Assembly: GCA_002841375.1 (NCBI GenBank)
Contig: PGZO01000003.1
Location: 1-64,000 of the forward strand
DNA length: 64,000 bases
From: Firmicutes bacterium HGW-Firmicutes-7
GTDB lineage: Bacteria; Bacillota; Clostridia; Lachnospirales; Vallitaleaceae
Direction of reading: 5' to 3'
Below the pieces are notes generated by a model. That model saw nothing but the letters and a program-made list of their open reading frames with translations, did no database searches and was not told the origin of the DNA. Made by a program: the position numbers and the translations under genes. How positions within the stretch are numbered: the stretch's first letter is position 1; each line of letters starts with the position of its first letter. Below are positions 8,801 to 14,555 of the stretch, in pieces.

Positions 8801-9313
8801 TTAGACTGTTTTTTTTGGATTAAGAAACAACGTCATGCTTCTTCCTTCCATTTTTGGTGGCTTTTCAATATCACTGATTTCTTCAAGCCCTTTTGCAAAC
8901 TCAAGAAGAATCTTTCTTCCGACTCCAGTATGTGCCATTTCTCTACCTCTAAAGCGTACAGAAACCTTAACTTTATCGCCGTTTCCTAAAAACTTTTCGG
9001 CCTGTTTCTTCTTAGTATTAATATCATGCTCCTCAATATTAGGTGATAAGCGCACTTCTTTTAAAGTTATGATATTTTGTTTCTTACGAGCTTCTTTTTC
9101 TTTCTTAGCCTGCTCATAACGAAATTTACCATAATCAATAATTTTGCATACTGGTGGAATTGCTTTTGGTGAAATTTTCACCAAATCGAGGTTCTTTTCT
9201 CTTGCTAACTTTTGGGCATCCTTTGCTGACACTATGCCTAACTGGTTACCATCTTCATCAATAAGTCGAACTTCTCGATCTCGAATTTGCTCATTAATCA
9301 TATGTTCACTAAT
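8801..9313 (-). CDS. infC: Translation initiation factor IF-3, AUU start
   Basis: About 170 residues with the two-domain IF-3 pattern: INEQIRDREVRLI and the VCKIIDYGKFRYEQ linker helix, then LSPNIEEHDINTK and VRFRGREMAHT. It binds the 30S subunit and checks start-codon pairing. I place the start at ATT 9311-9313, which is 9 bases after GGAGG and codes ISEHMINEQ. The in-frame ATG at 9301 is 21 bases from that site and has none of its own. IF-3 genes characteristically start with AUU, allowing the factor to repress itself. Confidence 0.93.
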   Translation of the reverse strand: MSEHMINEQIRDREVRLIDEDGNQLGIVSAKDAQKLAREKNLDLVKISPKAIPPVCKIIDYGKFRYEQAKKEKEARKKQNIITLKEVRLSPNIEEHDINTKKKQAEKFLGNGDKVKVSVRFRGREMAHTGVGRKILLEFAKGLEEISDIEKPPKMEGRSMTLFLNPKKTV

Positions 9314-9492: not shown

Positions 9493-9521
9493 ATTGTAAC
9501 ATGGTTTGCCATGCATGTCAA
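9493..9521 (-). promoter_or_regulatory. Sigma-A promoter of infC-rpmI-rplT
   Basis: TTGACA (9516-9521), a 17-base spacer and TACAAT (9493-9498), close to consensus. It starts the leader transcript about 180 bases before infC. Confidence 0.88.
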
Positions 9522-9600
9522 ACATTTTCCAATATAATTTTTTTCATATTATCATTATAAAATCATGTTATTTTTAGTGTGTTAGTAATTGACTAATAGA

Positions 9601-9625
9601 AAACCCGCAAAAGATTTGCGGGCAT
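9601..9625 (-). terminator. Terminator of thrS
   Basis: On the minus strand CCCGCAAA-TCT-TTTGCGGG is followed by TTTTC. It lies about 20 bases after the thrS stop. Confidence 0.85.
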
Positions 9626-9646
9626 ATATGTGCTGTATTGAATTGT

Positions 9647-11575
9647 TTAGTTTTCCTCTACTTCTCTTTCAATAATTAATTTTTTGTTTATCTCATCTTT
9701 TATCTTTATAACAAAGTCATCAATGGATGAAACACCTTCATCACCCTTTGCTCTACTTCTAACTGATACAGTACCTTGCTCTTCTTCACTTTGACCAACT
9801 ACCAACAAATAAGGCACTCTTTCCATTCTAGCTTCTCTAATCTTATAACCTATTTTTTCTGCTCTTTCATCAAGCTCAACTCTAATGTTTGCGTCATTAA
9901 GCTTTTCCCTTACCTTATGTGCATAATCGTGATACTTTTCAGAAATCGGTAATATTTTTACTTGAACTGGTGATATCCATGTTGGAAACGCTCCAGCAAA
10001 ATGCTCTATTAGTATTCCAATAAATCTTTCGATGCTACCAAATGCTACTCTATGGATCATAACCGGACGATGTTTTTCTCCATCCTTTCCAACATAATCA
10101 ATTTCAAATCTTTCAGGCATTTGGAAGTCCAATTGAATTGTTCCACATTGCCAAGTTCTGCCTAGACAATCTTCTAAATGAAAGTCAATCTTAGGTCCGT
10201 AAAATGCACCATCACCTTCATTAACAACGTAGGATAAACCTTTTTCATCTAACGCTTCTTTCAGGGCTGTTGTTGCTTTATCCCAATCCTCGTCACTACC
10301 CATGCTATTTTCTGGTCTGGTTGAAAGTTCCATTTTATATTTATAACCAAATACACTATAGATTTGATCAATTAGTTCAATGACGCCTTTAATTTCATCT
10401 TTGATTTGTTCCGGTAGCATATAAATATGGGCATCATCTTGGGTGAAGTTTCTTACACGCATTAACCCATGAAGAGCTCCAGACATTTCGTGTCTGTGAA
10501 CTAGCCCCAACTCTCCCATTCTGATTGGAAGATCTCTATAAGAATGTTGTTTTGTTTTATACACCAATAAGCTACCTGGACAGTTCATCGGTTTAACAGC
10601 AAAATCGGCTTCATCAATAATTGTTGTATACATATTATCTTTATAATGGGCCCAGTGGCCAGAACGTAACCACAACTCTTTATTTAGTATAATTGGTGTA
10701 GAGATTTCCATGTAACCAGCTTTCCTATGAACATCTCTCCAATAATCAACTAGCGTATTCTTTAAAATACTACCTTTAGGTAGGAAAAACGGAAAACCTG
10801 GGCCTTCATCTAATAGCGCAAAAAGTTCTAGCTCTTTACCTAATTTTCGATGATCACGTTTCTTTGCTTCCTCAAGCATTTGAAGATACGCTTCTTGATC
10901 AGCTTTTTTAGCAAACGCTGTAGCATATATTCTTGAAAGCATTTTATTGTTTTCATTGCCACGCCAATATGCACCTGCCACTGACAAAAGTTTAAAAGCC
11001 TTTACCGCCTTCGTATTCATTAAATGAGGACCTGCACAAAGGTCAAGAAATTCACCTTGTTTGTAAAAAGATATCTTAGAATCTTCTGGTAAGTCCTTAA
11101 TTAATTCAACCTTATAATCTTCTCCCATTTCACTCATAAGTGTAATAGCCTCTTTTCTTGGAAGCTCAAAACGTTCAATCTCTAGTCCTTCTTTAACAAT
11201 CTTTTTCATTTCTTTTTCGATTGCATTTAATTCCTCTTCAGTAAAGGCCTCTTCACGATCAAAATCATAATAAAACCCATTATCTATAGCAGGACCAATT
11301 GCAAGCTTAGTATTTGGATAAAGGCGTTTCACTGCTTGAGCTAAAACATGTGAAGCTGTATGCCTAAATGCTTTTTTACCTTCTTCATCATTAAAAGTAA
11401 AAATACTTAGTTCAACATCTTCATCTATTTCTTTTCTTAGATCAACAACCTCACCATTAACTAACGCACAACAAGCCATACGAGCAAGCCCCTCGCTGAT
11501 GCCGTTTGCAATATCTAATACACTCTTTTTGTTATCAAATTCTATTTTTGAACCATCTTTTAATTGTACAATCAT
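9647..11575 (-). CDS. thrS: Threonyl-tRNA synthetase
   Basis: 642 residues, normal length. An N-terminal TGS domain (from MIVQLKDGSKIEF) is followed by the editing domain with RHTASHVLAQAVKR, the class II core with the zinc cysteine in PMNCPGSLLVYK and HRHEMSGALHGLMR, motif 3 in HRVAFGSIERFIG, and the C-terminal anticodon-binding domain from PVQVKILPIS. It charges tRNA-Thr. ATG 11575 follows AAGGAG by 9 bases. It is 23 bases downstream of the hemerythrin gene, and the T-box leader precedes both, so the two genes form one threonine-responsive operon. Confidence 0.97.
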   Translation of the reverse strand: MIVQLKDGSKIEFDNKKSVLDIANGISEGLARMACCALVNGEVVDLRKEIDEDVELSIFTFNDEEGKKAFRHTASHVLAQAVKRLYPNTKLAIGPAIDNGFYYDFDREEAFTEEELNAIEKEMKKIVKEGLEIERFELPRKEAITLMSEMGEDYKVELIKDLPEDSKISFYKQGEFLDLCAGPHLMNTKAVKAFKLLSVAGAYWRGNENNKMLSRIYATAFAKKADQEAYLQMLEEAKKRDHRKLGKELELFALLDEGPGFPFFLPKGSILKNTLVDYWRDVHRKAGYMEISTPIILNKELWLRSGHWAHYKDNMYTTIIDEADFAVKPMNCPGSLLVYKTKQHSYRDLPIRMGELGLVHRHEMSGALHGLMRVRNFTQDDAHIYMLPEQIKDEIKGVIELIDQIYSVFGYKYKMELSTRPENSMGSDEDWDKATTALKEALDEKGLSYVVNEGDGAFYGPKIDFHLEDCLGRTWQCGTIQLDFQMPERFEIDYVGKDGEKHRPVMIHRVAFGSIERFIGILIEHFAGAFPTWISPVQVKILPISEKYHDYAHKVREKLNDANIRVELDERAEKIGYKIREARMERVPYLLVVGQSEEEQGTVSVRSRAKGDEGVSSIDDFVIKIKDEINKKLIIEREVEEN

Positions 11576-11598
11576 TTATTTTAACTCCTTTTCATTAA

Positions 11599-11997
11599 TT
11601 ATCTCAACAAATGTACATACTTGCTATCTGTATCTAGTATGTGCTTCGTAATCCAATCTAATAGGAAAAATGTAATTTGTTCGATTTTTTCAAGTTGATC
11701 TTCATCTAAATCATCACTCATAAACTGACTAATTTTTCTAACAAATATTTTATGCTCCATTTTATGTCCAATTAATCCATCATAATTAACTGAATCCATT
11801 AAGTTTTCTTCAAAGTTAAAATGATAAACTGTATAATCCACCAATTCTTTTAATACTTGCACAACCTCATCATAGCAATCATCTCCATCTTCTGCTGCAT
11901 ATACTAAATCTTTCGTTTGCTCAACTAAATCTACTAATTTCTTATGTTGCTCATCAATTTCTGTAATTCCTAAAAGGAATTTGTCGTTCCACATCAT
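11599..11997 (-). CDS. Bacteriohemerythrin-family protein
   Basis: A 132-residue four-helix protein. The diiron ligands typical of hemerythrins are visible: ITEIDEQHKKLV, YTVYHFNFEENLM, GHKMEHKIFV and WITKHILDTDSKY. Such proteins bind oxygen or sense or store it, and are common in anaerobes. I begin at ATG 11997, 8 bases after GGAGG; a longer reading from TTG 12012 would start inside that ribosome-binding site. It is the first gene after the T-box and lies 23 bases before thrS, an unusual place for it. The functional link to threonine supply is unknown. Confidence 0.9.
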   Translation of the reverse strand: MMWNDKFLLGITEIDEQHKKLVDLVEQTKDLVYAAEDGDDCYDEVVQVLKELVDYTVYHFNFEENLMDSVNYDGLIGHKMEHKIFVRKISQFMSDDLDEDQLEKIEQITFFLLDWITKHILDTDSKYVHLLR

Positions 11998-12082
11998 TTT
12001 ATTGTCCTCCAATTATGTAAATATTATTTTAGCAGGAAGCAAAAAAACTTCCTCGTTAACCTATGTGTTTAATTTTAGAAAA

Positions 12083-12325
12083 CAAAAAAACTCGCACTCA
12101 CTAATTATATATTAGTAAGGGGCGAGAATCATTTCCCGCGGTTCCACCCTCATTGTTCCATAGAAACCACTTGTTATGATGATAACGTAATCAACGGACT
12201 GTATAAAAGTCACTCAGAGGTAGTCTTCAAATGGTTCAAATTAAAAGCCTTTCAGCATATGGCCTTCTCTCTACAATTCTACGCATTTTACTCGTCTCTT
12301 CATCGTATTTTTTGTATTCTTTTAT
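12083..12325 (-). promoter_or_regulatory. T-box leader (tRNA-Thr-sensing) of the hemerythrin-thrS operon
   Basis: The minus strand contains the T-box core AGGGTGGAACCGCG (12137-12150). Upstream is a stem I region with GAACCATTTGAAG, in which ACC at 12233-12235 is a plausible threonine specifier codon. Downstream is a terminator, CTCGC...GCGAG with an inner TTACTAAT/ATTAGTGA stem, followed by seven T (12084-12126). Uncharged tRNA-Thr should bind and allow read-through. The specifier fits the gene controlled. Its exact loop placement is my reading by eye. Confidence 0.93.
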
Positions 12326-12328
12326 TCT

Positions 12329-12356
12329 ATTATAGCACCCACATCGTATTTGTCAA
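12329..12356 (-). promoter_or_regulatory. Sigma-A promoter of the T-box operon
   Basis: TTGACA (12351-12356), a 16-base spacer and TATAAT (12329-12334), both perfect hexamers. Confidence 0.9.
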
Positions 12357-12383
12357 GACATCTGAGTCGTTCACACAGAACTA

Positions 12384-12917
12384 TTATTCATTTAAATACC
12401 AATTGTTTTTTTCATTCTTCAGAACTTCCTTTTCTATTGTTATAAACTGTTTTGAATATTTATTGTTCGGTGAAACACTCATACTACTTGCATAGCCCTC
12501 ATTTAATAGTTGAAAATTAAACATGTTTGTTATATTTTTTTCATTATCTGGTTTACTTGTCCATACATATCTTAGCAATCTATTATATTTGTCCTGATCT
12601 TCAATATCCTTTTCTAGATATATTATGCTTCCAAGTAAATGATCACTTGTAAATGACTTGGCTTCCTTGCCACCCTGCGTATTAAGCTCTGGACAATCGA
12701 CACCTATAAATCTCACTTGTTGATTAAACCCATTTACAAACACTTCAATCGTATCACCATCTATAATTCTTAATACTTCAGCAACATCATAGGATATAAT
12801 TTGGTCAGAGGACGTAATAAAGAAACTCGTTCTAACCTGAAACAAATCAACAACGAATACAAAAAGACCTATAATAACAAGTACAAAAATACTCCTAAAA
12901 CAATGATTCCTTTTCAT
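12384..12917 (-). CDS. Thermonuclease-family (SNase-like) protein, membrane-anchored or secreted
   Basis: About 177 residues from ATG 12917, which follows GGAG by 8 bases; a TTG further up lacks a site. An N-terminal hydrophobic stretch (SIFVLVIIGLFVFVVDLF) is a signal peptide or anchor. The staphylococcal-nuclease fold follows with its catalytic set: IIDGDTIEV (metal Asp), VRFIGVDCPE (Arg, Asp, Glu) and DKYNRLLRYVW (second Arg). It probably cuts DNA or RNA outside the cell. It stands alone, ending just beyond the T-box promoter. Confidence 0.88.
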   Translation of the reverse strand: MKRNHCFRSIFVLVIIGLFVFVVDLFQVRTSFFITSSDQIISYDVAEVLRIIDGDTIEVFVNGFNQQVRFIGVDCPELNTQGGKEAKSFTSDHLLGSIIYLEKDIEDQDKYNRLLRYVWTSKPDNEKNITNMFNFQLLNEGYASSMSVSPNNKYSKQFITIEKEVLKNEKNNWYLNE

Positions 12918-12958
12918 ATTACGATCTCCATAAAGTCCACCCTTCAAAAGCGCAAACC

Positions 12959-12990
12959 ACAAAGGGCCAGAAGATTCCAGCCCTTTGATA
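12959..12990. terminator. Stem-loop upstream of the nuclease gene
   Basis: CAAAGGGC and GCCCTTTG form a clean 8-bp stem with a 13-base loop. T-runs are weak on both strands. It could end transcription coming from the 13-kb side. Confidence 0.45.
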
Positions 12991-13284
12991 TTTTAAAACA
13001 TTAAGTTGTTTAGATAAAAATATTAGATTCTCCGCAGTATATTAGCTATTGATTGATAACACCTAAATACCCAAAACATCTGTTCAAAATCATAATTCTT
13101 TACAATTAGCTTTCTATCAAAATCATAATAACAAAACTACCTTAAATAACCTCTCACTATACTTACAATTAAACATCTTCTTAATTCTAAATAAATTAAA
13201 CTAATTCAAAATAATTCTTTACTCATTATTATAATTAAATCATACTCACTCTTAATTACTTTACACTTTATTAAATAATTAATT

Positions 13285-13516
13285 TCAACTAAATGTCTGT
13301 TCACTATCTCCATCAATAACTATTTTAGCTTGCCAATAGTAGTGACCTTCTTTTTCATTAAGAAACCATGATTATTTAAGTATCAAACTTATTGGCACTT
13401 ACACTTCATCTTCTTTACGATAAAGTATAAAAATATACTGCTTCTTCGCCCATGAAATCTAATGGGCCGTATTACACTGCCCTTATGCGACCTACCGATT
13501 GGAGTATCATTTTCAT
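13285..13516 (-). pseudogene. Possible gene relic in a 690-base non-coding stretch
   Basis: Between the nuclease and hslO (12990-13680) I found no intact gene. An ATG at 13516 has a good AAAGGAG site but reads only 14 codons (MKMILQSVGRIRAV) before TAA. The same frame continues YGPLDFMGEEAVYFYTLS, then stops again. Another frame further on reads FLNEKEGHYYWQAKIVIDGD and ends at 13285. The pieces look protein-like and are probably a decayed small gene. I cannot assign a family. The remainder of the interval is very AT-rich and shows nothing else. Confidence 0.35.
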
Positions 13517-13679
13517 ACAATCACTCCTTTTAAATGTTTTAGTAAATTACTTTACCTATGACATTTATTCGTTTAAAAGGCTTTTCCGGAAAGTTCCTTT
13601 AACAATATTATACGCCTGAAACTTCGTTTTTGCAAGTATTATTTTCATTATTTTTCCCATAAGAAGGAAATATTTCATA

Positions 13680-14555
13680 TTAAGATTTTCTTAAAATATC
13701 TTCTAGTTCTGCCGGGGTAAAGTTATATTTTTTACTGCAAAAATGACAATTCAACTCTATTAAATTACCATCATCTATCATTTCTTGAATATCTTTTCTT
13801 CCAACGCTAATTAAAGCTTTTTCTACTCGTTCTTTTGTACAATTACAAGAAAATTTTGTTTCAAGTTTTTCATGTACTGTAAATTCTAAATCACCCAATA
13901 CAAGCTGTATCATATCTTCAGGTGTGTAGCCTTTTTCTAACAGGGTGGTGACTGACGGCATTTTTGTTAGGTTTCCTTCTAACTTTTCAATCAAATATTC
14001 CTCTGCATTTGGCAGCAGTTGAAGAATAAAACCACCACTTTGCTTAACGCTTCCATCTCGATCAATAAGAACGCCTAACGCAACAACTGAAGGAACCTGT
14101 TCTGAAGTTGCAAAATAATAAGTTAAATCTTCTGCTATTTCACCAGTAACCAAGTGAGTTTGTCCGATATAGGGATTCTTTAGGCCAATGTCTTTAATAA
14201 TAGACATTATACCTAACCCTAACGCTTCTGAAACATCTAGTTTTCCAGCTTGATTTAGTGGAATATCCACATCCGGATTATATACGTAACCTTTGACCTC
14301 TGCTTTTGCGTTCGTTGTGACAACGATTCCTTGTATTGGACCTGAACCTTTTATTTGTAAGGTTAATAAGTCACCTTCACCTTTTAATTGAGTTCCCATC
14401 ATAGCTGCAGCAGTCATAAGCCTTCCAAGCGCAGCCGTAGCAACTGGTGACGTTTGATGGAGCTGCCTTGCTTTCTCAATGGTTTGCTTGTTCGTTACCG
14501 AAAAAACACTTATTTGATTGTTTGCTGCCATACCTCTAATTATGTAATCCTTCAC
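13680..14555 (-). CDS. hslO: Hsp33 redox-regulated molecular chaperone
   Basis: 291 residues, normal for Hsp33. The N-terminal domain starts MKDYIIRGMAAN, followed by the conserved RLMTAAAMMG region. The C-terminal redox switch has the four zinc cysteines as CNC near residue 237 and CHFC near 269. On oxidation it releases zinc and holds unfolding proteins. It overlaps the end of the methyltransferase gene by 20 bases, so the two are coupled. Confidence 0.96.
   Translation of the reverse strand: MKDYIIRGMAANNQISVFSVTNKQTIEKARQLHQTSPVATAALGRLMTAAAMMGTQLKGEGDLLTLQIKGSGPIQGIVVTTNAKAEVKGYVYNPDVDIPLNQAGKLDVSEALGLGIMSIIKDIGLKNPYIGQTHLVTGEIAEDLTYYFATSEQVPSVVALGVLIDRDGSVKQSGGFILQLLPNAEEYLIEKLEGNLTKMPSVTTLLEKGYTPEDMIQLVLGDLEFTVHEKLETKFSCNCTKERVEKALISVGRKDIQEMIDDGNLIELNCHFCSKKYNFTPAELEDILRKS

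Follow-up and report, generated by a model that had tools for sequence, protein, structure and literature searches.

A bacteriohemerythrin gene stands between a threonine T-box and thrS in Vallitaleaceae and a second family

The window analysed here is a stretch of 64,000 nucleotides from contig PGZO01000003.1 of Firmicutes bacterium HGW-Firmicutes-7, a member of the Vallitaleaceae. On its minus strand a promoter, a threonine T-box leader, a terminator and a bacteriohemerythrin gene follow one another, and thrS begins 23 bases further on. The promoter (12329–12356) reads TTGACA-N16-TATAAT, agrees with the consensus at 12 of 12 bases and carries the TG of an extended −10 element. The T-box leader (RF00230; 12115–12312) was identified by an Rfam match of 101.9 bits (E = 2.4e-21), above the gathering score of 93 bits, and contains the antiterminator T-box core AGGGTGGAACCGCG with its UGGA (12137–12150). 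The hemerythrin gene (11599–11997) starts with an ATG at 11997, preceded by a GGAGG, and codes for a single-domain protein of 132 amino acids. It is followed by thrS (9647–11575), which specifies a threonyl-tRNA synthetase (ThrRS) of 642 amino acids and matches TIGR00418 with 740 bits against 383.65 for the model. The next gene is infC (8801–9301; named from sequence). Between thrS and infC lies a terminator-like site on the same strand (9603–9623), a nine-pair stem with a T run; the simple terminator scan that includes this site returned two sites compared with 1.5 in shuffled sequence, which is near chance.

The T-box terminator (12084–12126, minus strand) is absent from the list of that scan but is strong by folding. 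Its hairpin and U run have a predicted energy of −15.5 kcal/mol (z = −6.6), and none of 200 shuffled sequences was equally stable. On its own, the hairpin on the antiterminator side is weak (z = −1.54), and the fold of the whole leader is no better than that of shuffles (z = −1.15), a value that is uninformative because the 361 nt have two alternative states. The first-pass annotation had already described the consensus promoter, the T-box core with its terminator, and a hemerythrin-family gene with thrS 23 bases on. All of these were confirmed, the T-box by the Rfam match and by folding against shuffles, and the hemerythrin gene by Pfam and NCBIfam models together with the coordinates.

One detail of that description had to be replaced. 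An ACC specifier candidate had been named, with no position, whereas the specifier loop in the Rfam alignment reads GAAG-ACU-A and so gives the threonine codon ACU at 12224–12222. ACU is preferred because of these loop columns, because of the register seen in other T-boxes and because of conservation among leaders. Indeed, the same register fits five of the six other T-boxes of this genome with a nameable next gene, as judged from the translations, and the expected codons stand in these columns for ilv (AUC), proS (CCU), glyS (GGC), trpB (UGG) and leuA (CUC); the exception is the T-box of hisS, which reads AAC. Among the 13 leaders that precede both a hemerythrin gene and thrS (see below) the specifier is ACU in 12 and ACC in one (genome G042), and ACU or ACC stands at the same place in 10 of 14 scanned thrS leaders that have no hemerythrin gene, the other four being unfit for the simple pattern. 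The sequence GAACCA at 12232–12237, considered as an ACC specifier, lies outside the specifier loop and is not conserved among the leaders. The tRNA stretches that were read contain four tRNA-Thr genes (GGU, CGU and two UGU), all with a discriminator U73, which the UGGA of the T-box matches.

The protein behind the T-box is a canonical di-iron hemerythrin, as judged from its family and ligands. It matches PF01814 (8.5e-16) and passes both bacteriohemerythrin models, NF033749 with 110.6 against 84 bits (E = 5.5e-32) and TIGR02481 with 107.7 against 51.75 bits. An AlphaFold2 model built from a 12-row alignment (mean pLDDT 90.6) is a four-helix bundle like the solved hemerythrins, and Foldseek matched it to DcrH-Hr (2awc) with a TM-score of 0.82 and 31% identity. 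Five histidines, one glutamate and one aspartate form the canonical ligand set of O2-binding hemerythrins; in the window protein these are H18, H59, E63, H78, H82, H119 and D124, and from family and ligands it would be expected to bind O2. All seven ligands are intact in 13 of 13 thrS-linked copies, while among 97 unlinked hemerythrins the third histidine (H78) is replaced by glutamine in 30 and the first is missing in one. Values of dN/dS between 0.06 and 0.19 were obtained for six hemerythrin pairs (nine pairs were taken; two of them consisted of identical sequences, and for one no dS could be obtained), which is indicative of selection that has maintained the protein. A degenerate hemerythrin is thus ruled out by the intact ligands and dN/dS.

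Next, the arrangement was sought in other genomes, as a check that had been proposed for it. A hemerythrin match is present in 38 of 59 genomes searched, and the order T-box, hemerythrin, thrS occurs in 13 of the 59, the present genome included, so that an order unique to one assembly is ruled out. These 13 genomes span three genera of the family of the window, one of them Vallitalea, and one genus (g29) of a second family; by genus, thrS follows the hemerythrin gene in 2/2 genomes of the window's own genus, 6/6 of g3, 3/4 of g4 and 2/2 of g29. When 20 hemerythrin loci were scanned with Rfam (E ≤ 0.01), a T-box was found in 12, exactly those with thrS after the hemerythrin gene, and in none of the other eight. 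Seven of the 12 pass the gathering score (8/13 counting the window), four score 82–92 bits, and that of G042 scores 46 bits, probably owing to its enlarged 5′ part. In all 13 operons a perfect TTGACA-16-TATAAT promoter stands upstream of the T-box and the hemerythrin gene is the first gene behind it. The leader of G001 is unusually long between the T-box core and the hemerythrin gene.

The pairing is not universal in the family. The reading of thrS leaders covered 55 of the 59 genomes (all but G026, G048, G050 and G054), and 11 of 22 family members have no hemerythrin gene at this place, with a T-box core 80–375 nt before thrS. As these retain the core, the hemerythrin is dispensable. The exact T-box core, a pattern to which the variant core of G042 does not conform, was absent, in the stretch examined, from every locus without thrS among 140 hemerythrin loci; 14 of the 140 count as having thrS, one probably being the same gene with other match borders (13 of 110 in the tree set). 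Wider searches gave no further examples: thrS adjoined none of 29 new loci in a class search (391 genomes) and none of 11 in a phylum search (398 genomes). In a search of the order (392 genomes, 125 with a match) 13 of the best 30 matches have thrS, and these are the 13 best, while among the best 80 of 326 relatives in a contig search the five with thrS correspond to G003, G009, G010, G017 and G018 and are no extra cases. A more distant hemerythrin adjoining thrS elsewhere could escape searches of this kind.

The spacing of the genes bears on whether they are expressed together. In G010, G014 and G018 the end of the hemerythrin gene runs 1 or 4 nt into the thrS start, and the hemerythrin start lies only 20–29 nt past the T run of the terminator, which leaves no room there for a separate hemerythrin promoter. 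The gap between the two genes is 14–103 nt in the other ten. The simple scan lists no terminator between hemerythrin and thrS in the window, and in the long gaps of G021 (98 nt) and G009 (103 nt) the folded hairpins end without a T run. The nearest promoter-like site to the junction in the window (TTGAGA-18-TAAAAT, 11607–11578) would start transcription inside thrS, and a weaker one (9 of 12 bases, 12021–11993) spans the hemerythrin start; promoter-like sites in 9500–13700 number 24 as compared with 19.7 ± 4.7 in shuffles. An internal thrS promoter in the window was rejected, there being no good site between the two genes. At a threshold of 10 of 12 bases, no site was found in the hemerythrin gene plus gap of the window or of nine other operons, and one was found in three of the 13 (G001, G042 and G055), near the chance rate of 0.10–0.46 expected per operon from codon shuffles. 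The sites of G042 and G055 share their position, and a thrS promoter inside the hemerythrin gene is possible in these three genomes.

A separate promoter and terminator that would uncouple the two genes were therefore looked for in the window and neither was found, and the anatomy supports the earlier view of one T-box operon. Co-transcription of hemerythrin and thrS under the threonine T-box is well supported on these grounds, and as members of one T-box operon both should respond to the switch: from the anatomy and the T-box class, hemerythrin would be expected to rise on threonine starvation or on loss of tRNA-Thr charging.

The thrS genes behind the hemerythrin are of two types. In G013 and G021 a single T-box core heads hemerythrin, thrS-B and thrS-A, one directly after the other, and the other eleven of the 13 have a single thrS of either type: only A in the window's own genus and four g3 genomes, only B in three g4 genomes and g29 (E ≤ 1e-80). 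The B genes are 53–57% identical to the thrS-A of the window and differ in the motifs surrounding the active site, with the editing residues present in both. In a tree of ThrRS sequences, thrS-B of these groups clusters with that of the hemerythrin-less G005, G007, G011, G015 and G035 (support 91) and thrS-A with that of G006 and G035 (support 86); neither branch is starred in that tree. G035 also has a tandem thrS pair behind one T-box core, with no hemerythrin gene in the slot. The simplest reading of these sequences is that the ancestral unit was T-box, hemerythrin, B, A, that B or A would afterwards have been lost from it, and that hemerythrin would have disappeared on several occasions.

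Hemerythrin phylogeny is compatible with a single origin, though it does not amount to proof. The tree, built on 137–138 columns, is poorly resolved, and the thrS-linked label needs two changes on 110 rows or three on 62. A single clade of the 13 linked rows plus two rows from genus g8 was not rejected (P = 0.81) and scored better than the free search, and nor was a clade of the 13 linked rows alone (P = 0.68). In the two g8 genomes, G012 and G016, the hemerythrin belongs to this clade and is not next to thrS, and no T-box was matched at either locus; the G012 copy, as read, is without its N-terminus and first iron ligand. Taken together, the data are consistent with an arrangement that arose once, was kept for a long time and was lost several times. 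A single origin would also mean that the 13 genomes represent few independent events. The gene had been called ‘captured’, and this fits a single ancient event passed on by descent, not a recent insertion.

The genes upstream of the unit are less constant. In the window a nuclease-like gene (PF00565, SNase; 12384–12917), 53% identical to that of G001, is the immediate upstream neighbour of the promoter; in four g3 genomes this position is taken by a gene for a membrane protein. Further upstream on the same strand is hslO (Hsp33, PF01430; 13680–14555), which codes for a redox-controlled chaperone. A methyltransferase-like gene and hslO occur upstream in the window's own genus, in four of six g3 genomes and in the hemerythrin-less G005; neither was found in the 5.5–6.7 kb upstream of G009, G021, three g4 and two g29 genomes. 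As G005 has hslO and no hemerythrin, this neighbour is not tied to the hemerythrin gene. Upstream neighbours change and the unit stays, which indicates that it outlives its surroundings.

T-box control of thrS is reported for at least 29 of 34 Firmicutes (PMC2494555), and in its promoter, Thr-specifier T-box (RF00230), terminator and thrS the present locus is of this kind. It differs from the usual T-box thrS in that the gene of an unrelated di-iron protein stands between switch and synthetase, and in that two diverged thrS genes follow in two relatives. Likewise, the protein resembles other single-domain bacteriohemerythrins (NF033749; DcrH-Hr 2awc and 4xpx) in fold, length and the seven ligands, but unlike theirs its gene lies under a threonine T-box. 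It is further distinguished by Cys41, a residue shared by 11 of 13 linked copies and both g8 ones and found in 0 of 95 others compared; the g29 copies have a tyrosine there. As judged by listing or title, no paper returned by searches of an open full-text library pairs hemerythrin with thrS or with a T-box, most subscription journals being outside the scope of that search. In its structure, this is a real and conserved T-box synthetase operon arrangement, undescribed as far as our searches reach.

The first-pass annotation knew of no reason for the pairing. One can be proposed, from the editing cysteine of ThrRS and by analogy with HerA. The editing residues of the window ThrRS, H72, H76, C180 and H184, correspond to H73, H77, C182 and H186 of the Escherichia coli enzyme, in which C182 is reported to be oxidised by air and by peroxide, leading to Ser-tRNA-Thr; the authors of that study raise the possibility that ThrRS editing serves bacteria as an oxidant sensor (PMC4041444). 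The Campylobacter hemerythrins HerA and HerB are reported to help shield O2-labile enzymes (PMC4257069), and Vallitalea guaymasensis L81 is described as obligately anaerobic (PMC6163223).

The reading that we favour, tentatively, is that co-made hemerythrin buffers O2 or oxidants for ThrRS. Uncharged tRNA-Thr would pair with both the specifier (ACU) and the bulge (UGGA), transcription would continue past the terminator, and one transcript would then provide both hemerythrin and ThrRS, as the class of the T-box implies. Made together with ThrRS, the hemerythrin would keep levels of O2 or oxidants low near the protein-synthesis machinery of a presumed strict anaerobe, the likeliest target being the editing cysteine, C180. 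Were ThrRS to fail, tRNA-Thr would be left uncharged and the switch would raise both the protector and the enzyme. In favour of such a role are the restriction of the T-box to thrS-linked loci, the perfect promoters, the overlaps, the intact ligands and the low dN/dS, as well as the persistence of the unit through changes of upstream neighbour and thrS type. The proposed client is unlike the Fe-S oxidoreductases that are the clients of HerA and HerB, and we know of no link of these two proteins to a synthetase. Against the role stand the small number of independent events that a single origin implies, the absence of hemerythrin from the slot in half of the family and the report that human ThrRSs are insensitive to H2O2 (PMC7337905). 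In addition, all 59 of the 59 ThrRS sequences read have the editing cysteine, whether or not hemerythrin is present, and a residue shared by all of them does not explain a pair limited to this clade. The number of cysteines in the ThrRS of hemerythrin carriers is not clearly different either.

Plain hitchhiking is nearly as likely. The hemerythrin gene would have landed once behind the thrS promoter and gained steady housekeeping expression for general O2 defence, with no link to ThrRS or threonine, and it would persist because the protein is useful and because disrupting an essential operon is costly. The tree, with which a single origin is compatible, would suit this account, as would the vacancy of the slot in half of the family and the g8 hemerythrins of the same clade that lie away from thrS with no T-box match. 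So would G035, in which a small zinc-ribbon membrane protein gene, described from its translation, occupies the same slot (locus L188, 2022–2422). Harder to reconcile with it are the retention of the unit despite changed thrS type and neighbours, the stop/start overlap in three genomes, and the fact that, in the loci examined, hemerythrin stands behind no other T-box; moreover, of the two copies outside the operon it is G012's that has lost its N-terminus and first ligand.

A less likely account makes the threonine T-box itself a damage sensor, so that loss of charging caused by O2 induces hemerythrin as a general defence and not as a guard of ThrRS. That hemerythrin comes directly after the switch in each of the 13 operons, and that the T-box and tRNA-Thr features match, would agree with this. 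In E. coli ThrRS, however, it is the editing cysteine that is reported to be oxidised, and the cysteine that binds zinc in the charging site seemed to resist (PMC4041444). A synthetase that no longer edits would not leave more tRNA uncharged.

Hemerythrins bind several small ligands, and the relevant one might conceivably be nitric oxide, peroxide or iron and not O2, with ThrRS shielded from S-nitrosation or other di-iron chemistry at work; we consider this improbable, the ligand set being the canonical one of O2-binding hemerythrins, even though human mitochondrial ThrRS is reported to be sensitive to nitrosative and not to peroxide stress (PMC7337905).

A much more specific form of the oxygen-guard reading can be built on Cys41, which the structure model places in the loop before helix 2. 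This residue may simply reflect common descent, or it may be a contact for a redox partner. That the hemerythrin is a dedicated partner of ThrRS, docking on it or forming a mixed disulfide through Cys41 to guard the editing cysteine, with the threonine T-box serving as an oxygen-damage sensor for translation, is a speculative proposal to which we give little weight.

Production of hemerythrin and ThrRS from one T-box transcript would bring oxygen defence under the control of an amino-acid riboswitch, in addition to the functions already placed there. This clade, whose members are presumed to be strict anaerobes, would offer a natural test of oxidant sensing through ThrRS, and the long-standing placement of the gene hints at a link between oxygen defence and protein synthesis. 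A hemerythrin poor in threonine, as might suit a protein made during starvation, was not convincingly seen, the threonine content being 3.34% in linked and 3.66% in unlinked copies.

Two minor observations concern other T-box leaders. In G011 and G006, inverted repeats of the AACTTTCCCAC type lie after the terminator and before thrS, like a small mobile element. In the genome of the window, the T-box before hisS (contig C42, 125991–126207) has the asparagine codon AAC, and not a histidine codon, in its specifier columns, together with a GGTGGC core. G73 is the discriminator of asparagine and aspartate tRNAs and would fit this core, so that this T-box perhaps heads a mixed hisS operon.
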